A stretch of DNA of 64,000 bases from Peromyscus leucopus (lineage: Eukaryota > Chordata > Mammalia > Rodentia > Cricetidae): positions 7,095,231-7,159,230 of the forward strand of contig NC_051071.1 in NCBI RefSeq assembly GCF_004664715.2, given 5' to 3'. Every line of letters starts with the position of its first letter. Positions within the stretch are counted from its first letter, which is position 1. Of the stretch, positions 895-62,948 are shown in pieces. Both the position numbers and the translations under genes were made by a program. The notes under the pieces are model-generated. The model made no database searches, was not told the DNA's origin, and saw only the letters and a list, made by a program, of their open reading frames with translations.

Positions 895-3800
895 TTAATA
901 TATTTTAACATTTTTACTCTCATATATTATATTCCAATGACATTTTTCCCTCCATTTCCTTAACCTAGCTTCTCCCTACATCCCCTCTCCCCCAGATTCA
1001 CCTACTTAGCCTCCCCTCAGAAAAGAGGAGGGCTACCAGGGGCATCTAATAACATGGGATAACAAGCTACAATAAGACCAGGAACATAAATACCATCATA
1101 TAATTGCTGGACCAGAGACCCCAGCAGGAGGAGAAGGGTCACACAAGTAAGCAAAAGAGTCAGGGGCACCTATGTTCCTACTGTCAGGAATCCCACATAA
1201 ACACCAAACTACTCAGCCATAACATATATGCAGAGGAACTGTGTCAGACCCCAACAGACTCCCTGATCTCTGTGAGCCGCAATGAACCCCAGTCAGTTGA
1301 TGCTATATGCCATGTTTCCTTGGTATCCCTGACCCTCTGATTCCTCTGATCCTTCCTTCCCCACCTTCAGAGGAACCCCCAAGCTCTGCCTAACGTTTGG
1401 CTGTGGCACGCTGCATCTGCTTCCATCAGTTGCTAGATGAAGTCTCTCTGGTCTTTGATGATGATTCTGCAAGGCTTTGGTTCCAGAACAAGTAGGACAA
1501 ATTGTAGATTGAAGATTTTGAGACTGGGTTGATGTACCAATACCCCCACTTGAGACTTTTCCTGGTTATAGATGATGGCCCATTCAGGCCCTATGTCCCC
1601 AATTTCTAAGAGTCTTTGCTAGGATTACTCATGTAGATTCCATTATACTAGGCTTCCAACATGCCTTCCAATTCTAGTCATTTCTCCCAATATTTTCTCC
1701 TTCCCCCATACCTGATCTCTACTATTCCCAATGCCATGTACCCCCAGTCCACCCACAAAATCAATTCCATTTTCCCTTCTTAGGGAGATTCTTGTGTCTT
1801 CCATGTCAGAATTATCTTTTACTTTACAACTAATATCTACTTGTAAATGAGTAAATATCATATTTGTATTTTTGGGTAGGACTGGATTACCTTACTCAGG
1901 ATGACTTTTACTATTTCCATCCATTTGTCTGAAAATTTCATGATGTCATTGTTTGACAGCTGAGTAATACTCAGTTGTGCAAATGTATCACATTTTCTTT
2001 ATATATTCTTTGGTTGAGAGATATCTAGGTTGCTGCCACTTTTGGGATATTATGAATAAAATTTCTATAAACATAGGTGAGTAAATATCCTTGTGATAAG
2101 ATGGAATATCCTTTGAGTATATGCCGACAAGTGGTTTAGCTAGGTCTTGAGGTAGATCAATTCCCAATTTTCTGAGAAACCACTGTATTGATTTCCAAAG
2201 TAGCTGTGTAAGTTTTCACTCCCACCAGCAGTGAAGGGGTGTACACTTTGTTCCAAATCCTCCCCAGCATGAGTTGTCATTTGAGTTTTTTATCTTAGCC
2301 ATTCTGACAAGTATAAGATGGAATCAAAGTTATTTTGATTTGCATTTTCCTGATGGCTAAGGATGTTGAACATTTCTTTAAGTGTTTCTTGACCATTTGA
2401 AATTCCTCTGTTTAGAATTCTCTTTTTAGATGTGTACCCTATTTTTAATTGGATTATTTAATTTGTTGATATCTAGTTTCTTGAATTCTTTATATATTTT
2501 GGATATTAGTTTTCTGTGAGATGTGGGGTTGGTGAAAAATCTTTTACCATTCTGTAGGCTGCTGTTTTGTCCTAGTGATGGTGTCCTTTGCCTTAGAGAA
2601 GGTTTTCAGTTTCATGAGGTCCCATTTATTAATTGTTTATCTTAGTGCCTGAACTATTAGTGTTCTATTTAGGAATTGCCTCCTGTGCCAATGCTTTCAC
2701 GGTTATTTTGCACCTTCTCTTCTATAAGTTCAGTATATCTGGATTTATGTTGAGGTCTTTTATTCACATGGACTTGAGTTTGGGGAAGAGTGATAGACGT
2801 GGATATATTTGCATTCTTCTACCTGCCATCACTCATAGAGAACTACACCATTTGTTGAAGATGCTTTCTTTTTCCATTGCATATTTCTGGCTTCTTTATC
2901 AAAAATCAGGTGTCCATAGGTGTGTGGATTTATGTCTGAGACTTCAATTCAATTCCATTGATCCACCTGTCTGTTTGTCTGCCTATACCATGTGGATTTT
3001 ATTACTACATCTCTGCATTACAGCTTGAAATCAGGGATGGTGATACCTCTGCAAGTTCTTTCATTGTATAAAATTGTTTTAGCTATCCTGGTTAGTTTGT
3101 TTGTTTGTTTTTCCATATGAAGTTAAGTTTTGTTTTTTCAAGGTCTGGGATTTTGATGGGAATTGCCTTGAATCTGTACATTGCTTTTGTAGAATGACCA
3201 TTTTTACTATGTCAATTTTGCTGATCAATGAGGATAGATCTTTTCATTTACTGATATCTTCTTCAATTTCCTTCTTCAAAGATTTGAGGTTCTTATCATA
3301 CAGGTCTCTGGCTATTGTGAAGGGTGTTGTTCCCTTGATTTCTTTCTCAGCCCATTTGTCATTTCTGTATAGGATGGATACTGATTTTTTTTAAGTTAAT
3401 CTTGTATCCAGCCACTTCACTGAAGGTGTTTACTAACTGTAGAAGTGTCCTGGTAGTATTTTTGGTGTTGTTTAAGTATACTATCATATCATTTGCAAAT
3501 AATGATACTTTGATATTTTCCTTTCCAATCTATATCCCCTTGATCTCCTTCAGTTATTTTACTACTCTAGATAGAACGTCAAGTACTGTATGGAGTAGAT
3601 ATGCATAGAGTGGACAGCCTTGTCTTGTTTTTTAGTGAAATTGTTTTGAGTTTTCTCTCCATTTACTTTGATGTTGGCTATATGCTTGCTCTAAATTGAT
3701 ATTAGAATAGCTGTACCAGTTTGCTTCTTGTCCATTTGCTATTAAAATATTTTTCTAATGCTTTACTCTGAGGTAATGTCTGTCTTGATATTGAGGTATA

Positions 3801-5524: not shown

Positions 5525-5630
5525 ATGATGGCTATGTTTCATTTTTGTAGAGGTAAATAAAATTCAATTGAGTGTGTGGATCATATTTTTCTTATCTATT
5601 CATTGTTGATGAACATTTATTTGCTGTTGT

Positions 5631-6129
5631 AAATAAAGTAGCAATAAAAGCAATGAACTTAGTTGCAGCTCTCTGTAGAATGTAGAATCCTTTTTGAATG
5701 TAGAATCCTTTGGGTATACACTGAGGAATAGTATATCTGGGTCATATGTTAGTTCTATGTTTTGATTTTTGCGGAACCTACAGCCTGGGTTTCCATAGTG
5801 ACAGTACCAGTTTATCCTTCTATCAACAGTAAACCCAGGTTACTGTTCCCTCCATCTTCCCCAGCATTGCTATCATTTATTTTCCAGATGGACATTAAGA
5901 GTGGGATTAGCTTGATCTGGAGGCGGTGGAAATGGGGGGTGGGCTGGGGGGAAGGGGAGGGGGGCAGGAAGGGAGAGAACAAGGGAATCAGTGGCTATTA
6001 TGTAGAACTGAATAGTATTGTAAAATAAATAAAAAAATTTTAAAAAAAGTGGGATTAGGTAGCATCTCAAAATTTTCATTTTCCTGATGCCTAATGCTGT
6101 GTAACACTTTTTAAAATGTTGGCCATTTA

Positions 6130-6138
<9 letters not shown>
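5631..6138. repeat. 508 bp direct repeat, left copy
   Basis: It runs from AAATAAAGTAGC to GGCCATTTATATATTTTT and is repeated at 6529-7037 with an offset of 898-899. The copies look identical except in a G-rich run near 5942-5970 and an A/T run near 6030-6048. The next base on the right is the poly(T) of the retrocopy, so this copy behaves like one half of a very long TSD. Confidence 0.95.
5911..6047 (+). mobile_element. Very short L1 3'-end insertion with TSD
   Basis: About 137 bp of the G-rich L1 3' UTR end (pattern GGAGAGAACAAGGGAATC, then GTGGCT...ATGTA and an A-rich tail) lies inside the old L1. It is flanked by agtgggattag at 5900-5910 and 6048-6058. It is present in both copies of the 508 bp repeat, so it predates that duplication. 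Confidence 0.85.
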
Positions 6139-6177
<39 letters not shown>

Positions 6178-6443
6178 CTTGAATATATTTTATTACACAC
6201 AATGTTTAGTACACCTTAAATGTTTCTTTCTTACAAACTATGTATAGAAAATTTTTATATATCTATTTTTATCTATGTATTCATCCCATCATAATCTTAT
6301 TTCATTTGGGAAATTAAATTTTTATAAAACATAGAGGAATTATCCCAAGTAAGTTAATTCCACAATGAATATTAAATTTCTATTCACATAAAAAGAATCA
6401 TTCACATAACTATCAATTTATTTATTCAATGAATGTAGGATAT
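6134..6443 (-). pseudogene. Retrocopied transcript 3' part (poly(A)-tailed)
   Basis: On the minus strand this is about 270 bp of AT-rich sequence ending in an AATAAA signal (complement at 6189-6194) and, about 17 bases later, a 39-base A run (plus-strand T at 6134-6172). That is the layout of a processed, reverse-transcribed mRNA 3' end. Its 5' side continues directly into the LTR piece at 6444-6530, so the source transcript seems to have run out of an LTR into flanking DNA. I do not recognise a coding region or source gene. Confidence 0.7.
6189..6194 (-). promoter_or_regulatory. Poly(A) signal of the retrocopied transcript
   Basis: TTTATT on the plus strand is AATAAA on the minus strand, placed about 17 bases before the start of the A tail, the usual spacing for cleavage and polyadenylation. 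Confidence 0.7.
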
Positions 6444-6530
6444 TGTAGATGTAACCAACCATCTTATTAAAATAAAAAACACAGAACCAATGTAAAAAAG
6501 AAAGCCGAAAGGTCAGAGCTCAGAGCTAAA
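6444..6530 (-). mobile_element. Family I LTR, 3' terminal piece
   Basis: The plus-strand start TGTAGATGTAACCAACC is the complement of the LTR 3' end (GGTTACATCTACA). The piece matches the last about 87 bases of the LTRs at 29309-29730 and 49309-49762. It stops where the right copy of the 508 bp repeat begins. It forms the 5' end of the retrocopied transcript. Confidence 0.85.
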
Positions 6531-7037
6531 ATAAAGTAGCAATAAAAGCAATGAACTTAGTTGCAGCTCTCTGTAGAATGTAGAATCCTTTTTGAATGTA
6601 GAATCCTTTGGGTATACACTGAGGAATAGTATATCTGGGTCATATGTTAGTTCTATGTTTTGATTTTTGCGGAACCTACAGCCTGGGTTTCCATAGTGAC
6701 AGTACCAGTTTATCCTTCTATCAACAGTAAACCCAGGTTACTGTTCCCTCCATCTTCCCCAGCATTGCTATCATTTATTTTCCAGATGGACATTAAGAGT
6801 GGGATTAGCTTGATCTGGAGGCGGTGGAAATGGGGGGTGGGCTGGGGGGGGGGGGGGAAGGAAGGGAGAGAACAAGGGAATCAGTGGCTATTATGTAGAA
6901 CTGAATAGTATTGTAAAATAAATAAAAAAAAATAAAATAAAAAAAAAGTGGGATTAGGTAGCATCTCAAAATTTTCATTTTCCTGATGCCTAATGCTGTG
7001 TAACACTTTTTAAAATGTTGGCCATTTATATATTTTT
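6529..7037. repeat. 508 bp direct repeat, right copy
   Basis: Second copy of 5631-6138. At its right end the old L1 continues normally (TTTTTGAGAATTCTG), so the original locus reads through this junction. The insert plus one repeat copy is the added material. Confidence 0.95.
6810..6946 (+). mobile_element. Very short L1 3'-end insertion (duplicate)
   Basis: Duplicate of the 5911-6047 element inside the right repeat copy. The G-run has drifted to a long uninterrupted G tract and the A-rich tail has an extra AAATAAAATA-type unit. These are the main visible differences between the repeat copies. Confidence 0.85.
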
Positions 7038-7230
7038 GAGAATTCTGTTTCATTCATTACTCCATTTACTGATTAGGCTATTGTTCTTATTCATTTTTTT
7101 TTTCCTGTGTGTTCTAGGTTTAATCCTCTGTCAGATATGTAACAAGCAAATACTTTCCCCATTCTTTGGGATGCCTCTTCAGTCAACTTACGTTCTCTTT
7201 ACTGTATCAAAGCTTTTGAATATTATTGGG

Positions 7231-10672: not shown

Positions 10673-10967
10673 TTACTACCATGAGTACCTCATGGAACTT
10701 TCTCCAAAATTGACCATATACTCAATCCAAAAGTAAATATAAAAAAAAATTGAAATAACTCCCTGTATTTTATCAGATCACTGTGAATTAAAGCTGAATT
10801 TCAACAATCACAAAAACAATGGAAAGCCTATAAACTCATGGAAACTGAACATTTCTCAACTGAATTACCACAAAAGATGGAAAGATCTCCCTTTCTCATG
10901 GATTGGTAGGATTAACATAGTAAAAAGGGCAATCTTACCAAATGCCATCTGCAGATTCAATGCAATT

Positions 10968-11119
10968 CCCATTAAAATGCCAACACAATTCATTACAGAT
11001 CTTAAACAAAAAATATTCAACTTCATATGGAAAAACAAAATACCCATTAAAAATCCCAACACAATTCATTACAAATTTTGAAAGAATAATACTCAACTTC
11101 ATATGGAAAAACAAAATAC
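10968..11119 (+). repeat. 75 bp tandem duplication in L1-B ORF2
   Basis: CCCATTAAAATGCCAACACA... (10968-11042) is repeated at 11043-11119 with period 75. The second copy has several substitutions, so the duplication is not very recent. Both copies end with ATATGGAAAAACAAAATACC. Confidence 0.9.
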
Positions 11120-11660
11120 CGAGAATAGCTAGAACAATCCTGTACAATAAGCTATGCTACAGAGCTACAGTCATAAAAACTTTGTCATATTGACATAAAA
11201 ACAGAAAAGTGGATCAATGGATCTAATTAAAGACAGAGATGTAAGGCTACACACCTATGAACACAAGATTTTCAACAAAGATGCCAAAATTATACAATGG
11301 AAAAAGGAAAGCATCTTCAACAAATGGTGCTAGTCTAATTGAATGTTGTCATGTAGAAGAATGCAAATAGGTCCATATCTATCACCCTGCATAAAATTCA
11401 AATCCAAGCAGATAAAGGACCTCAACAGAAATCCAGATACACTAAACCCAATAGAAGAGAAAGTGAGAAATAGCCTTGAATGCATTGCCAAAGGAGACAA
11501 CTTCAGGAATAGAACATCAACACTGCAGACACTAAGGTCAACAATTAATAAATGGGACTTCATGAAACCAATGTTTCTATTAGACAAAGGACACCATCAT
11601 TAGGACAAAATGACAGCCTAAAGAACGGAAAAAGATCTTCACCAATACTTCATCTGACAG

Positions 11661-11808
11661 TGTCTGTTTTTTTTTGTTGTTGTTGTTTTTTTTTTCCGTT
11701 TTTCAAGACAAGGTCTCTCTGTGTAGTTTTGGTGCCTGTCCTGGATCTCGCTCTGTAGACCAGGCTGGCCTCGAACTCACAGAGATCCGCCTGCCTCTGC
11801 CTCCCACT
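11661..11808 (-). mobile_element. B1 SINE, antisense
   Basis: A T-rich tail at the left is followed by the complement of B1: TGTGTAGTTTTGGTGCCTGT, then GTAGACCAGGCTGGCCTCGA and ACTCACAGAGATCCGCCTGC. B1 is 7SL-derived and transcribed by RNA polymerase III. The 5' head is truncated after GCCTCC. It lies within L1-B. Confidence 0.95.
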
Positions 11809-13621
11809 GATTTTTAAAATATATAAAAAAAACTCAAGAAACTAGACATCAACAAACAATTAATTCAGTTAGAAATTGGAATACAAATCTAAATGGAGGA
11901 TTTTCAACAGAGTACTCTCAAATGGCTGAGAAACATTTAAAGAAATGTTCAACATCCTTAGCCATCAGGGAAATGCAAATCAAAACAACTCTGATATTCC
12001 ATCTTACACTTGTCAGAATAGCTAAGATAAGAAACACAAGGGAGAGCTCATGCTGGGGAGGATGTGGAGCGAGGGGAACACTCCTTCACTGCTGGTGGGA
12101 ATACAAACTTTTACAGCCACTTTGGAAATTAATGAGGCAGTTTCTCAGAAAAGTGGGACACAACTATAGTACTCTTGGGCATATGCTCAAAGGATACTCA
12201 ATCATATCACAAGGATATTTCCTTAACTAAGTTCATAGCAGCTTTATTTGTAAAAGCCAGAACCTGGAGATAGCCTAGGTATCCCTCAACTGAGGAACTG
12301 ATAAAGAAAATGTGGTACATTTACACAATAGAGTATTACTCAGCTATCAAAACAGTGCCATTCTGAAATTTTCAGGCAAATGGATGGAACTAGAAAAAAA
12401 ATTATCCCGAGTGAGGCAACCCAGATGCAGAAAGACAAAGATGGCATGTAATCTCTCATAAGTGAATATTAGCTGTAAAATAAAGGATAACTATGTAACT
12501 ATTCCACAGACCCAGAACGACTAGGTAACAAGGAGAGTTTAAAGGGGAATGTCTGAATCTCCCTGGGAAGGGGATATAGAAGACATTCTGTGAGTGGAAT
12601 AAGGGCAGGTGGGGATGGGAACAGGAACAATCAGGTTAGGGTGGGTAGAGAGTGGAGAGTACTGAAAGAGACTACTGGAAATGGAGGGCATTTTGGGGTC
12701 ACATAAAAACCTGGCACAAGGGAATCTCCCAGGAATCTATAATGATGACTCCAGATAAGACTCAGAGCAATAGCAGATATGTATGTCATCTGAACTGGTC
12801 ATCTCCTGTGATCAGACAAGGATTCAAGTAGAGGGAACAGGACACCAACTCAGCCAAATGACCTTTGACCTACAATATGTCCTGCCTATGGGATATGCTG
12901 GGATAATCTTGGCCTAGAGATTGAGTAAGTTGCCAAACAATGCCTGGTCTAGCCTAAAACTCATGCCAGGAGAGTAAGTCCACCTCTGACACTACTTGAA
13001 TCACCACGATCCACAGCCTGTATGGCTCAGAGACCTAGGATAGAACCAAACACGATTGGAAGGGGAAAAACATGTCAATGTAATGATGCCTAATAATATT
13101 CTGCTAAATCTATAGATTGGTGCTTAGCCCAATTGTTATCAGAAAGGCTTCATCTAACAACTGAAGGAAGCAAATGCAGACCCACAGTTTGGGGAATCCT
13201 GCAAAAGAGGAGGAGAAAGGATTGTAGGAGGCAGATGGGTCAAGGATACTACGAAAACCCACAAAATCAAATAACCTGGGCTCATAGAGGCTCACAGAGA
13301 CAGAATCAACAACCAGGGAGCCTGCATGGACTGACCTAGGCACTCTGCATATATGCTACAGTTGTGTAGCTGGTCCTCTTGTGGAACTTTTAATAGTGGG
13401 AGCAGGTGCTGTCTTTGACCGTTTTACTGGCTGTTGGGACCCTACTTATCACACTGGGTCACTTTGCCCAACCTCAATACATGGGGAGGTGCTTACTCTT
13501 GCTGCAATTTGACATGTATATTTTGTTGATACTCATGGGAGACCTTCTATTTCCTGAACAAAAATGGAGAAAGAATGAATTGGAGGGTAGGAACAGAGGA
13601 GGTGGGGGGAATGACTAGGAG

Positions 13622-21040: not shown

Positions 21041-21151
21041 GAGATGGGAATGGGGGGTGGTTTGGGGGAAGGGGGGGCGGAGGGGGGAGAACAAGGGAAT
21101 CTGTGGCTGATATGTAAAATTATATTAAATTATAAAATAATATATATATAA
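21041..21151 (+). mobile_element. Short L1 3'-end insertion, sense
   Basis: GGAGATGGGAATGGGGGGTG, a G-rich run, GGGAGAACAAGGGAATCTGT, then GATATGTAAAATTA and an A-rich tail. It is flanked by aattgga at 21034-21040 and 21152-21158. It forms an imperfect inverted repeat with the antisense L1 end at 21183-21573. Confidence 0.85.
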
Positions 21152-21182
21152 TTGGAACAAGTTTTAAAGATTTATTATTTTT

Positions 21183-21573
21183 TCTTTTTTTCATTTTTTA
21201 AATTTATTTATTAAATTTAATTTTACATATCAGCCACGGATTCCCTTGTTCTTCCCCTCCCACCACCCATTCCCATCTCCTCCAGGGCAAAGACTCCCCA
21301 GAGGATTGAGTTCAACCTGGTAGATTCAGTCCAGGCAGGTCCAGTCCCCTTCTCCCAGGCTGATCCAAGTGTCCCTGTATAAGCCCCAGGTTCCAAACTG
21401 CCAGTTCATGCATGCACTGAGGACAGGACCTGGTCCCACTGTCTGGATGCCTCCCAAGCAGATCAAGCTAATCAACTGTCTTATTTATCCAGATGGCCTG
21501 ATCCAGTTGGGGGCTCCTCAGCTATTGGTTCATAGTTCATGTGTTTCCTTTCGTTTGTATATTTGTCCCTGTG
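21183..21573 (-). mobile_element. L1 3' end, 5'-truncated, antisense, with 16 bp TSD
   Basis: It begins with a poly(T)-rich tail and the complement of the L1 3' UTR end (CATATCAGCCACGGATTCCC). It is flanked by aagatttattattttt at 21167-21182 and again at 21574-21589, a perfect 16 bp TSD. The 391 bp length and A-tail show ordinary L1 target-primed insertion. Confidence 0.95.
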
Positions 21574-21823: not shown

Positions 21824-23702
21824 ACTTGGAATATACTTTTAAAAAGAATATTAGCTTGCTAAAATTATTTTTCAATGATGGATTACTATGTTTCAAGCAG
21901 TACTTTGATCACTTTTTATGACTTTACATAAATTGTCCCAGAAGCTTAGAATTAAATAAAACATGCTCATGCAGTAGAATTTTGGGGACATTTAAGGAAG
22001 AAGGAAAAACATTTTTTTCCCAATTTCAAACTTTGTAGAGTAATTATAAATTTTATTTGAAAAAACATAATTTAAAAGCAAAAGAATCACACGAATAAGA
22101 AAAATTCAATTCTGTATTCAGTTCAAACTAGGACTTTAATAATATGTTCCTGAATGTAGAAAATGTGGACTTCTGGATAGAGTAATTTGCAATAACTTGA
22201 TGCAACTTCCAGAAATAGCAGAAAAGTATTAAACATTTGTATGTGTGAGTGTGAAACAGGGATTGTCCAAAAGCAGCTTTGCTCCATTCGGTCTTGGAGT
22301 CAGTTTGTAAACAGAGACAGAATTAGTGCAGCACCTACTAATCCAGGAGTCTGGGGAGGGGAGCTTGCAGGCTTAGGTGTTTGCAAAGCTGTCACCTGGA
22401 CAGACAGACATTTGTTCCTTCCTAAGAGCTGCAGAGAAAAAAAAAATGCTACCTGTTTGGCTTGTTTGTTTGTTTGTTTGTTTTGCTCTTTTCTTATTCC
22501 ATAATACACTCAGGCATTATTTTTAAAAAGACTAAATCTCCAATCAGAAAAATTTGAGCAAAATACTTTTTCTGATGTGTCACAGGACTGGCTAAGAATT
22601 TAAACAGTGTTTGTCAACAGTTTTAAGAGAAGTTAAAGCTGCTTGCTTGGCGATAGAAGAATTAACTATGTAGTGTCACATTCATTAAAATATTTTAACA
22701 ATTATGAAAATCTTATTATTCATTTTTTTCACTTTTATCTCTATAATTTGTTTTCTTACTCTAAAAAGGAAATTCTTCAAAATGGGTTAAAAAGTCTTAA
22801 GAGGAAAACATAAAATATTTTATAATATAGTTTTTTAATAATAGCAATTCAATATTATGAAACTAAAAATTATGTGTAAAAAGTCTCCTATGTAATTGTC
22901 AGCAAATAAGGACTTAGTTCATTTCATAAGAGGAGTGCAGACAGATATGAAAGCTAGGAGTAAAGAAGCTGAGGGAACACTTCAAGTAAGAAGATAGAAA
23001 ATGACTTTTCAACTGATCTTTGTGGTAAAAGCGATTATAAAAGTGAGTTGCACTGACTGTTTTCTTTACGTTCTAATTTTATCCTGTAATTTTTTTCTCC
23101 AAGAAATAATAAGATAAATTTGAGTGACAAGAATCTTGTTGAATTGTTACTAATTTACTGAATGCTTAATTTGATTTTATGTCTTAATTTGATGGTGTAA
23201 TATAACCTATAGGGAACAATTTAAATAATTTAACTCTTTGTTATTACATGGAAAGAAGATATAAATGCATCATCCAAAAATGTGTTTCAATAAAAGAATA
23301 GAGTATATTTATTAGCCTTTAACCTATCCATGTGATGAATTATCTTAAAGCTTAGAGGCATTCACAACTCAAGAGAGGCCAAGGTATAAAAACAGTACTG
23401 GGGCATAGGCTAACCGTGATCACATAATTATAAATGCTGCATTTCCAAGGGTAATCATCCTCCAATTCCCGAAAGGATCTCCATATTTAACTACAAAGTA
23501 ACTCAGGTTTTTCCAAGTTCAGTATTAAAAATGAACCTCTTATTCCTCAGCTTCAAAACAAGGTATGAGCCAAGAAATGTGATTTCAAAAAGTATAATTA
23601 GGAAGAATAAGATGTGATTACATTATGTTTATCGTATTGCATTTTACATAATCATGGTGGCATTATCATACACTAAGAAATTAATGAATAAAACTCATAT
23701 CA
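21824..23702. other. Unrecognised AT-rich DNA with a (GTTT)n run
   Basis: A short (GTTT)n array lies at 22459-22482. Otherwise no repeat family or gene is seen. Confidence 0.5.
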
Positions 23703-23703
23703 C

Positions 23704-23722
23704 AACACACACACACACACAC
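23704..23722. repeat. Short (AC)n
   Basis: About nine AC units. Confidence 0.9.
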
Positions 23723-23764
23723 GGATAGTTAAACACTCTTTAATAGTAAAATAACTGCTGGAGT

Positions 23765-25110
23765 TATCTCCACTCAGATTTTAAGTTATACTACAGACAT
23801 AAAGTACTAAAAACAGCGTGGTTTGACTTAAAACAGACATGTTGTTGGATGTAATTGAGTTGAAGACAGGAACATAATTCTACACACCTACAAATACCTG
23901 GTTCTTTACTAGAAGCCAAAAATATACACGGGAGAAAAGGCAGCATCTTCAGTGAGTGCTGGTCAAACTGGATGGCTGTATGCTGAAGAGTGCAAGTAGA
24001 CCCATATCCATAACTGTGCACAAAATACAGATTCAAATGGATGGAGGAACTCAGCATGGGTCCAGATGCCCTGTATGTGATAGAAGAGAAAATAGGGACC
24101 AGACTGCAACTTATTAGTGCATGAAAAAGTTTTCTGAACAGGACACCAATAAGATACAGACACTAAGACAACAATTAATATATGAGCCTCATAAAGGTAA
24201 AATCTTTAGTATAGCAAAGGATAAAAATCATTTTGGCAAAGATACAGAAAAGAAAAGAATCAGCATCTAGAATATACAAATAACTTTAAAGATGAACATC
24301 AAGAAAACAAATAATCCCATAAAATTTGAGTAAAGAACTAAATAAAGAATTCTCAAAGGATGAAATGCAAATGGCTGAAAAACACTTAAAAATGCTCAAC
24401 ATCTTCAGTCATCAGGGAAGTGCAAATCAAACTTATCTTGAGATTTCATCTTAGTACAGAGAAAATGGCAAAGATCAATAAAACAAATGTCAGCACATGC
24501 TGGAGAGGATGTGGAGAAAGTGTAAACAGTTATTGCTGATGGGAGTACAAACAGAAATAATTGCTATGAAAATCATTGTGGAGCTTTCTCAAAAATTATA
24601 TCTACATCTCCTGGGCAGATACCCAACGGAGTCTACATCTTAGTACAGAGATACTGCTCATCCATTTCACTGCTGCTCTATTCATAATATCCAGAAAGTA
24701 GAAACATTGTAGGTGTCTATCAAGTGATAAGTGGATGGTGAAAATGGGGTGCATTTATACTATTTATAACTATTATTTAGTTGATTAGAAAAATGAAATT
24801 TTCAGGTACGTGGTTGGCACTAGAAACATCGTCCTCAGTAAGTTAAGTCAGACCCAGAAACACAAACATTACATGTGTACTAGTATACATTGATGTTAGG
24901 CAGTAAAGGGCTGAAAGTTGGCAATACGAACTTTCAAGGAAGGATAAATACAATGAAAGGAAAATCATGGTAGAAATATCAAATGAGAGGGCAAGGGAAG
25001 GTATGGTAGAGGAGGAAGTGTGGAAGGGGTAACTGAAACTAACAGTACCCCTTAACCTTAATGCTCAAATATATTCTCCTATATGAAGTATGTAACATTG
25101 ATCTTTGAAA
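23765..25110 (+). mobile_element. Older L1, ORF2 3' region and 3' UTR, sense
   Basis: Late ORF2 phrases are readable: GCAAATGGCTGAAAAACAC, CATCAGGGAAGTGCAAATCA, TGCTGGAGAGGATGTGGAG and AAATTTTCAGGTACGTGG. It is diverged, with multiple stops, and looks older than L1-B and the 27 kb L1. It lacks the upstream RT and endonuclease regions. Confidence 0.85.
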
Positions 25111-27270: not shown

Positions 27271-28659
27271 TCTTTTTTTACACAAATAATTTTTTACTTT
27301 ACTTTAATTAATTTTGTATCCTGACCACTGCCTCCCCTCCCTCCTCACCTCCCACTCCCCATTCACACCTCCCCTTTGACCCCCAAATCCACCCCTTCTC
27401 CATATTCCTTCAGAAAGGTTAGGCCTCCCATCGGCATCAGCAAAGCATGGCATATCAAGCTGCCATAAGACCAAGTGCCTACTCCTGTATTCAGGCTGGG
27501 CAAGGCAATCCAGCATGAGAAATAGGTTCCCAAGAGCCAACCAAAATACCATGGACAGACCTGCTCCCATTGCTAGGAATCCCACAAATAGATCAAGCTA
27601 CACAAATGTCACATATATGCAGAGGGGTTAGATCAGTCCCATGTAGGCTCCCTGGTTGTTGGTTCAGACTCTGTGAGTTCTCATGTGCCAGGCTAGCTCT
27701 TCCTGTGGGTTTTCCTGGGATGTTCCTGACCCCTCTGGCTCTTACAATCCATCCTCACTCATTAGCAGAACTCCCTGAGCTTGGCCCAATATTTGGCTGT
27801 GGGTCTCTGAATCTGCCTCCATCAGTCACCTCCATCTGGATGAAGGCTCTCCAATGACAACCTGGAAAGTCATCAATTTGATCACAGGAGATGGCCAGTT
27901 TAGACATCCGCTGCTGCCAGGAGTCTTAGCTGGGCCCATCCTTTTAGACTCCTAGGAATTTCAATTGTATCAGGCTTCTACCAGACACATAAAGCTCCCC
28001 TTTCTAGTCATCTCTGTCAGCACCCTTCCCCTCTGCCTGCCTGCAACCTGATCCCTCAAGTTTTCATGCCCACCTGCCCCTAGTTTACCCAGGAGATCTC
28101 CCCTATTTCCCCTTCCCAGGGAGATTTATGCATTTCCCTTAGGCTTTGCCTGTTACCTAGCCTCTCTGGGTCTGTAGATTGTAGCATCTTTACATCTAAT
28201 ATCCACTTATGAGTGAGTACATACCATGCTTTTCTTTCTGGGTCTGGGTTACCTTACTCCCTATTATGTTTTTCTAATTCAAACCATTTGCCTTCAATTT
28301 CCTGGTGTCATTGTTTTAAACAGCTGATTAATACTCCATTGTACAAATGTACCACATTTTCTTTATCCATTCTTCAGTTGAGGGGCATCTAGGTTGTTTC
28401 CAGGTTCTTGTTATTATGAATAATACTGCTATGAACATAGTTGAGCATGTGTCCTTGTAGTATACTTGAGTATCCTTTGGGTATATGTCAAATAGTAGTA
28501 TTTCTGGGTCTTGAGGAAGACTGATTCCTAATTTTCTGAGAAACCATCATATTGATTTCCAAAGTGGCCATACAAGTTTGCACTCCCACCAGCAATGAGG
28601 AGTGTTCCCCTTGCTCCACATCTCCCCGAGCATGAGTTGTCATTTGTGTTTTTTATCTT
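27271..28659 (-). mobile_element. L1 3' UTR and ORF2 end, antisense, 5'-truncated, with TSD
   Basis: A T-rich tail (27271-27310) leads into the complement of the rodent L1 3' UTR and then the end of ORF2 (TGTACAAATGTACCACATTTTC type block near 28340). It is flanked by gggctaagttttctt (27256-27270) and gggctaagctttctt (28660-28674), a 14/15 match. A 1389 bp truncated L1 insertion. Confidence 0.95.
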
Positions 28660-28674
28660 GGGCTAAGCTTTCTT

Positions 28675-29302
28675 AAGTAATTGATAGAGACTGAGCTGTG
28701 AGATAGCACAAATGATTATCCTCTCAAATAAGATTCACAGATTCAGAGAGCTTGATAAGTATAAGTATGTAAATGATACTAGGTCAGGGGAAGGACAGGA
28801 CAATGTTTGGAACCTGTGGTGATCCCTTCCCACACTGGGTTGTGCTTTATAGGCCAGATACTATACAAAGCCTTTATGCCAAGACTTGTGGGTCTGGTTA
28901 ATATATAGGAAACATTCTGTTAGCAATTTTTTTTTAATTTTGCTCCCTGTGATAGTATATAAATAATTTAGAACTCTATACATATTCATACCTCATAAAT
29001 CTGGGTTATATGTTTGTTTGTAATTAACAATCCTAAAGCAAGGATTTTCTGATGGCATTATTTCAGGAAAAATGAATCCCTTCCTAAAATATGTTGTGAA
29101 ATCTACTTAGTAAGACATAAATTTTACATAAATTTTCAAGACAATTAAATAAGATCACATTCTTATTTTTTTTAACCTCAGATAATACCAATAATTAATG
29201 AAAACAAAACAAATCACGTTTCAATCCTTTCATTTTTCCCCTCTCTTCTGCTCTTATATACTTTAAAGTATAGGAAAACACTTGAAGGGTCTTAGCAAAA
29301 TA
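28675..29302. other. Unrecognised intergenic DNA
   Basis: AT-rich DNA without a repeat or gene I recognise. Confidence 0.5.
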
Positions 29303-29308
29303 CTTAGT

Positions 29309-29730
29309 TGTGGTGGTATTCTAATTGTACTGAAATGTGATTTTGATTGTATGTTAATAAATAAAGTTACCCGGGGGTCAGAGCTATTAGAGCCATAGCA
29401 AAAGTGTGGCGGTGGTGGCACACGCCTTTAATCCCATAGATCTCTGTATGTTCATGGATACAGCCAGCATTGGAGACATATGCCTTTAAGACCTGGGGAG
29501 CTGTACATACAGACAGTGACGAGGCAGTCACGTGTTTGGGTTTACAACCAATGAGAAGGCAGAACAAAATACTATAAGAAGACGGACAGACAGGATATAG
29601 CTCTCTTTCGGGAAGCTGGGACACCGCAGGAGGAAGGGTGAGATTTTAGCTCTGAGCTCTGACCTCTCGGCTTTCTCTTTTACATTGGTTCTGTGTTTCT
29701 TATTTAATAAGACTGTTGGTTACATCTATA
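29309..29730 (+). mobile_element. Family I solo LTR with B1-like insert, 6 bp TSD
   Basis: It starts TGTGGTGGTATTC and ends GGTTACATCTATA (terminal CA mutated to TA). It is flanked by a perfect 6 bp TSD, cttagt (29303-29308 and 29731-29736), typical of class II ERV integrase. It carries CCAAT (ACAACCAATGAGAAGG), a TATA-like ACTATAAGAAG, and TTTAATAAGA near the 3' end. The 5' third contains B1-like sequence in sense (GGTGGTGGCACACGCCTTTA). Confidence 0.9.
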
Positions 29731-39163: not shown

Positions 39164-39295
39164 ATGATCAGGCACTCTGACAGCAATCAGGAACTTTGAC
39201 AGCACCTGTTGCTAGGTACTCAGGCTGACTCTGCATGATCAAGAACTCTGACAGTGATCAGGAACTCTGACAGCACTTGTTGCTAGGCTCTCAGG
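39164..39295 (-). repeat. 71 bp tandem duplication in ERV-A 3' LTR U3
   Basis: ATGATCAGGCACTCTGACAG... (39164-39234) is repeated from 39235 (ATGATCAAGAACTCTGACAG...). The 5' LTR has a single, shortened version. Tandem U3 repeats of this size in retroviral LTRs are commonly enhancer duplications. Confidence 0.85.
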
Positions 39296-49204: not shown

Positions 49205-49243
<39 letters not shown>

Positions 49244-49308: not shown

Positions 49309-49762
49309 ATGGTAATATTTTATTTGTACTGAAATGTGATTTTATTTGTATGTTAATAAATAAAGTTGCCTGGGGGTCAGAGCTAACAGCAAGCCATAGC
49401 AGAGCAGGCTGTTGGTGGCAGAAGCCTTTAATCCCAGCTCTTGTGAGGCAGAGCTATGCGGATCTCTGTATATTCAAGGATACAGCCAGCATGGAGACAC
49501 ATGGCTTTAATCTCAATACCAACCATAGAAATCCTGGAGGTCTGTACAGACAGGCAGTGATGAGGAGGTCATGTGGTTGGGTTTACAACCAATGAGAAGG
49601 CAGAACAGAAAGTCTATATAAAGACAAACACACAGAAGTAGGTCTCTTGGCTGAAGAGGATAGCTGCAGCAGTGAAGGGTAAGGCTCTTAGCTCTGACCT
49701 CTTGGGCTTTCATCTTTGCATTGGCTCTGTGTTTCTTATTTAATAAGATGGTTACTTCTACA
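49309..49762 (+). mobile_element. Family I solo LTR with B1-like insert, perfect 6 bp TSD
   Basis: Flanked by gatttt at 49303-49308 and 49763-49768. It shows CCAAT (ACAACCAATGAGAAGG), a strong TATA box (GTCTATATAAAGAC), B1-like sequence in the 5' part (AGCCTTTAATCCCAGCTC) and TATTTAATAAGATGG before the ...TTCTACA end. The initial TG is lost. Confidence 0.92.

Positions 49763-62905: not shown

Positions 62906-62948
<43 letters not shown>

Follow-up and report, generated by a model that had tools for sequence, protein, structure and literature searches.

How did two almost identical copies of about half a kilobase of old L1 sequence come to stand on either side of a short, poly(A)-tailed insert? 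The target-site duplication (TSD) of an L1 insertion is usually ~15 bp long, and the direct repeats at this locus exceed that length by far. All positions given here are those of the window, namely the whole 64,000-nucleotide stretch of Peromyscus leucopus DNA that was analyzed, and published work is cited by PMC number from excerpts of each paper.

Two Near-Identical Blocks in Direct Orientation

The left target copy occupies positions 5631-6138 (508 bp) and the right target copy positions 6529-7037 (509 bp). Neither is assigned a strand, and each was delimited by gapped alignment and by its continuity with an old L1, leftward for the left copy and rightward for the right copy. When the two blocks were aligned in direct orientation, 500 of the 514 columns were identical, and the 14 differing columns comprised 11 gap columns and 3 mismatches. 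The two near-identical blocks of 508 bp described in the initial annotation were thus confirmed. A chance origin of the similarity is excluded, because 403 of the 408 30-mers that occur exactly twice in the whole 64-kb window, more than 60 bp apart, start in the duplication locus, and because the block pair is the only pair with at least 95% identity in the window (self-BLAST, E 1e-10).

The differences between the blocks were confined to two tracts, one G-rich (5950-5965) and one A/T-rich (6030-6041). It had been suggested that the copies differ mainly in homopolymer runs; the differences do lie in low-complexity tracts only, but not all of them are changes in homopolymer length: there is also a C/A change, and the A/T pattern is rearranged. 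Substitutions outside simple repeats, the count that the initial annotation had proposed as a check, amounted to 0 in 441 sites, these sites being the blocks minus 5940-5971 and 6014-6048. The tract differences may have arisen by slippage at G-rich or A-rich DNA, during or after the event, or by consensus error.

Both differing tracts are located within a nested L1 3'-end piece on the + strand (5911-6047 in the left block and 6809-6946 in the right block, ends placed by eye). Since this piece is present in both blocks, it is older than the large duplication. It has a TSD of its own, an 11-bp exact repeat at 5900-5910 and 6048-6058 that reaches 14 bp with one mismatch (by eye), and it serves as an example of an ordinary insertion at this position. 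The G-rich tract of the piece, one of the two places where the blocks differ, is also predicted to be G-quadruplex-capable.

If rates between 8e-9 and 2.2e-9 per site per year are assumed, 0 differences in 441 sites put the 95% upper limit on the age at 0.42-1.54 My. If the locus is real, the event is therefore young, below roughly 0.4-1.5 My, unless gene conversion kept the copies alike, which would make the age estimate too young.

The uneven pattern of differences, with several in the tracts and none at the 441 clean sites, could also be given by sequencing or assembly error. Reads from a short-TSD insertion, or from haplotypes with and without the insert, might have been joined so that 508 bp appears twice; consensus errors would give differences of just this distribution, and the pure T39 run of the insert is hard to assemble. 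Diverged haplotypes, however, should differ in complex sequence too, and a false join need not put the end of a block at an L1-type site beside the tail. In addition, the window contains no N, and its other long pure runs (A35 and T40) have no exact direct repeat of at least 7 bp within 2 kb. An assembly artefact is accordingly considered unlikely.

Content of the Insert and Its LTR Relatives

The insert (6139-6528, minus strand) is all of the DNA between the blocks, and it consists of a 356-nt retrocopy and a 34-nt A tail. The tail is pure and, together with 5 T of the target, forms a 39-T run at 6134-6172 (minus strand; seen in the sequence and reported by TRF as 39 copies of T). An AATAAA poly(A) signal (6189-6194, minus strand, by eye) is located 16 nt upstream of the tail. 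The 3' part of the retrocopied transcript is a non-LTR segment of 271 nt (6173-6443, minus strand), for which no BLAST match was found elsewhere in the window (E 1e-3). The 5' part (6444-6528, minus strand) was identified by BLAST as the final 85 nt of an LTR that ends in ..ACATCTACA. A poly(T), a transcript-like segment and an LTR end, which had been read from the letters earlier, are therefore what the insert contains.

The matches to the LTR part fall at the 3' ends of two apparently solo LTRs. By BLAST, positions 6446-6528 of the insert aligned with 29,647-29,728 at 92.8% over 83 columns, and the LTR part aligned with 49,684-49,753 at 87.3% over 71 columns. The first LTR (29309-29730, + strand) is flanked by 6-bp CTTAGT repeats and the second, of the same kind (49309-49762, + strand), by 6-bp GATTTT repeats, with the boundaries set by eye in both cases.

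Because the insert crosses the LTR end into 271 nt that have no copy in the window, so that its 5' part is an LTR end and its 3' part an unrelated flank, it is most simply read as a transcript that would have begun within an LTR, or run through one, before terminating at a poly(A) site of the adjacent DNA. The insert starts ~74 nt downstream of CTATAAG, the TATA-like box of the 29.3-kb LTR; the retrocopy is thus probably 5'-truncated, the other possibility being that its RNA began further upstream. A source locus for the insert was not found within the window by BLAST, and two exact patterns (one for the insert and one for the related LTR) gave 0 matches in viral_contigs, a collection in which the host locus would not be expected.

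The idea that the insert has a special RNA fold was rejected (z -0.96, with 16 of 100 shuffles folding equally well), and a search of the whole window against Rfam at gathering thresholds gave 0 matches. The two solo LTRs were found to belong to one family (73.6% alike over 469 columns, self-BLAST), and both contain a stretch resembling a B1 SINE (GCCTTTAATCCCA..).

The Target Locus Before the Insertion

The blocks belong to an old L1, which we take to lie antisense on the + strand. This L1 is decayed and probably frame-shifted, so its continuity across the block ends was judged by DNA alignment. In a PDB search with X-stopped translations, covering two of the six frames (one per outer junction), no match to L1 ORF2p was obtained. 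To represent the empty site, a script fused the flanks around a single block in which the nested piece was masked, and 100 dinucleotide shuffles with the mask in place served as controls.

When the whole empty site was aligned with six stretches of the window, four of them outscored all 100 shuffles. The scores were 130.4 (shuffle maximum 81.9) for 1500-3300 plus and 95.1 (77.6) for 23600-25000 minus, with alignments that span both outer junctions, and 101.2 (69.1) for 27300-28800 plus and 91.2 (73.2) for 10800-13000 minus, with alignments that end within the block. For the opposite strands of matching stretches, 27300-28800 minus and 23600-25000 plus, 96 and 54 of the 100 shuffles, respectively, scored as well. 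Alignments centered on the single junctions were also scored. Against 1500-3300, the left junction reached 83.1 (shuffle maximum 52.6) and the right junction 75.0 (55.2). At the left junction the same four stretches beat all 100 shuffles, 23600-25000 minus narrowly (54.0 versus 50.5). At the right junction three stretches did so, 27300-28800 plus by only 46.3 versus 46.2, and for 10800-13000 minus 4 of the 100 shuffles were as good.

Since alignments of the joined flanks to other L1 copies run through both outer junctions, the locus, as judged from these alignments, carried one block before the insertion, and what it gained is the insert together with exactly one block. Both outer junctions are continuous with the old L1, and the only new junctions are the two inner ones, at which no short direct repeat flanking the insert was seen by eye. 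The view of the initial annotation that the right block runs on into the old L1, that one repeat copy was added with the insert and that the arrangement has the geometry of a TSD is borne out by these results. A control on the 7 homopolymer runs of at least 12 in the window gave, besides the run at 6134, a maximum of 7 bp; it did not recover ordinary TSDs and is of low information. The pure A35 and T40 runs mentioned above, with no exact direct repeat of at least 7 bp beside them within 2 kb, lie at 49207-49241 and 62907-62946.

The same junctions bear on a different order of events, in which a normal retrocopy landed exactly at the block junction of an already existing duplication, or in which a short-TSD retrocopy was remodelled by recombination into a 'pseudo-TSD'. 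Explanations of this kind are discussed in an excerpt of PMC5488345 for HERV-K and LTR elements with flanking repeats of 111-250 bp. Insertion exactly at the block junction would, however, be a coincidence, and a later retrocopy should bear its own short TSD, of which the inspection by eye gave no sign. Remodelling would need a second copy of the segment, and within the window there is none beyond the two blocks. Such histories appear extremely improbable.

Sequences at the Putative Nick Sites

On the tail side, the + strand reads TATATTTTT/GAGAATT, and the tail meets the target at TTTTT/GA. The putative first nick, TTTT/GA on the + strand (7034-7039, between 7037 and 7038 of the right copy), is the candidate primer site for the poly(A) tail, as a nick after T5 would leave the correct primer for an A tail. 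The site is of the L1-endonuclease type, TTTT/G being in the L1 site set; that it is not the canonical TTTT/AA counts against an L1 origin. According to the available text of PMC12016303, TTTT/A, TTTT/G and TTTC/A are found at 63.4% of 897 germline L1 insertions. In the window, these three motifs together make up 0.89% of strand-positions, and T5 before a non-T makes up 0.33%.

These frequencies are relevant to ordinary break repair, by which a 0.5-kb tandem duplication could have caught a free cDNA at its junction without the L1 endonuclease. The resulting geometry (block, insert, block) would be the same, and the capture of reverse-transcribed mRNA at breaks in mouse zygotes is described in the part of PMC4516963 consulted. 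Capture of this kind predicts neither a full A tail nor a tail that starts at T5/GA, a context as infrequent as just stated, and it is regarded as very unlikely here.

On the 5' side, the sequence is CTTTATTT/ACAACA on the minus strand and CTTTATTTTAGCTCTG across the junction. The candidate second nick, 5'-TATTT/ACAA, would lie on the minus strand at 5627-5635, between 5631 and 5630. The 29.3-kb LTR reads ATTTTAGCTCTG, and 3-4 bases could be shared with the target; the self-BLAST alignment with the 29.6-kb LTR runs to 6532, matching the next 4 target bases. The cDNA end was probably joined through this microhomology of 3-4 nt, depending on the LTR that served as the source, and the 49.3-kb LTR differs at the candidate microhomology position.

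Proposed Course of the Insertion

The best reading of the locus, to which a probability of roughly 0.7 is given, is that L1 made a target-primed insertion in trans and that the two nicks lay 508 bp from each other. An L1 ribonucleoprotein would have taken up a polyadenylated RNA in trans, consisting of the LTR end followed by adjoining DNA and ending at the downstream poly(A) signal. The + strand of the old L1 would have been nicked at TTTTT/GA, and reverse transcription, primed on the A tail, would have halted within the LTR. The minus strand would then have been opened 508 bp away rather than ~15 bp away, with the cDNA end joining there, and fill-in of both overhangs would have produced two 508-bp target copies, one on each side of the insert.

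Of the three options left by the initial annotation (a very long TSD, a tandem duplication that captured the insert, or an assembly artefact), the long TSD proved the best supported. It is preferred over chance capture because the tail starts at an endonuclease-type site, the insert has both a poly(A) signal and a tail, and its 5' end is likely truncated. The locus has the poly(A) tail and signal, the endonuclease-type tail site and the flanking TSD of an L1 trans-retrocopy, but its TSD measures 508 bp where ~5-30 bp is usual. TSD length is typical of L1-mediated retrocopies and does not define them, and long TSDs are among those reported in the available part of PMC5223499. Nevertheless, 508 bp is far outside the lengths reported for natural retrocopies in the excerpts consulted (10-31 bp in equids), and this, like the uneven pattern of block differences, counts against the best reading, which draws on a single assembled sequence with no source locus identified within the window.

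The same product would be expected if the end of the target-primed first-strand cDNA had become attached to a nick or break already present ~0.5 kb away on the sister chromatid, with duplication of the intervening segment. The junction evidence fits this course and the long TSD equally, and such bridging has been proposed for a 22.6-Mb tandem duplication in a tumour, whose junction holds a small L1 and shows a TTT/A motif (PMC7058536, in excerpt). It requires, however, a second break in the sister near the first, and over a distance of 0.5 kb it is simpler to assume that one duplex was nicked twice; bridging between sister chromatids is therefore thought rather improbable.

Comparison With Known Insertions

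Direct target duplications of half a kilobase to kilobases have been obtained in human cells deficient in nucleotide excision repair (XPA, XPC, XPD) and in a minority of HeLa events, and the locus resembles them in this respect. As given in the excerpts of PMC5223499, de novo L1 insertions in repair-deficient cells had a median TSD of 1495 bp, and XPC-deficient cells yielded TSDs of 275, 277 and 503 bp and more. XPD-complemented cells had a median of 14 bp, with 3 of 9 still above 100 bp, and TSDs above 100 bp made up at most 10% of events in HeLa cells. The majority of the large-TSD insertions in that source lay at typical L1 sites and most had long A tails, as here. They were, however, made by an engineered L1 in cultured human cells, some at atypical sites (9 of 26 in XPC- cells) and some tailless, whereas here an endogenous non-L1 transcript is found in a genome assembly. 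The same excerpts propose that excision-repair proteins normally help to hold the second nick close, and suggest that without them a distal, unrelated nick completes the insertion.

Three other systems show partial likeness, each as described in the available text of its source. The Cenpw cDNA in mouse Poc1a (PMC4619696) is likewise a polyadenylated RNA copied in trans, with an L1-type tail site and a duplicated target, but it has a 15-bp TSD and a nearly full-length mRNA, whereas here the TSD is 508 bp and the transcript contains an LTR and is probably 5'-truncated. L1-mediated tandem duplications in tumours (PMC7058536) likewise have one small insert, made by L1, where the copies of a direct duplication meet; the tumour event covers 22.6 Mb and is somatic, and the present one covers 0.5 kb in a genome assembly. 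HERV-K (HML-2) elements with flanking repeats of 111 and 250 bp (PMC5488345) also have unusually long, near-identical repeats around a retroelement, yet they are LTR retrovirus insertions and not a poly(A)-tailed retrocopy, and the authors consider that some such repeats may be products of recombination.

Surveys of TSDs, as far as their excerpts show, are partly blind to long ones. TSDs of 5-30 bp only were gathered in PMC2912911, and TSDs of 5-25 bp in PMC12016303. Equid retroCNVs had TSDs of 10-31 bp with a median of 17, determined for 316 of 437 (PMC10249811), and canonical human mobile-element insertions had a median TSD of 21 bp (PMC12350158). Long TSDs in HeLa cells were formerly attributed to peculiarities of these cells, and shorter and longer TSDs were said to need further study in vivo (PMC2912911). 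Among the titles and abstract starts of the matches listed in a literature search, none dealt with a natural processed retrocopy whose TSD measures hundreds of bp, which is weak evidence of absence, subscription journals being thinly covered there.

The locus is thus, apparently, a natural addition to a class documented mainly in cultured cells, and it merits a genome-wide count rather than the claim of a new mechanism. We raise only tentatively, as a somewhat doubtful extension, that L1 insertion with a half-kilobase stagger, known so far chiefly from cultured cells that are repair-deficient or transformed, also occurs in the mammalian germ line and is overlooked, since surveys count TSDs only to ~30 bp or class these loci with tandem duplications, and that the tract differences are a scar left when long fill-in synthesis in the same event altered these tracts. 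Second-strand cleavage during L1 insertion is poorly understood, both in its mechanism and in its position. An apparently young natural case with both junctions intact offers a concrete locus for gauging the germline frequency, and it suggests a search rule: a T-run, a retrocopy and a repeat of 50-5000 bp. Events of this kind could be one more route to the duplication of exons or regulatory DNA.

Other Repeats in the Window

At least two SINEs that we take to be B1-like occur in the window, whose sequence reads as rodent-like and probably cricetid-like. The stretch 21066-21274 aligns in self-BLAST with the reverse complement of itself at 74.3% over 218 columns and consists of L1 3'-end-like pieces in inverted orientation that form a palindrome-like pair. 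Two tandem repeats were reported by TRF. One, at 10964-11120, has a period of 76 and 2.1 copies in an L1-like region; the other is an array at 39164-39295 with a 71-bp period and 1.9 copies, that contains 19-bp subunits with an ACTCTGACAG motif.
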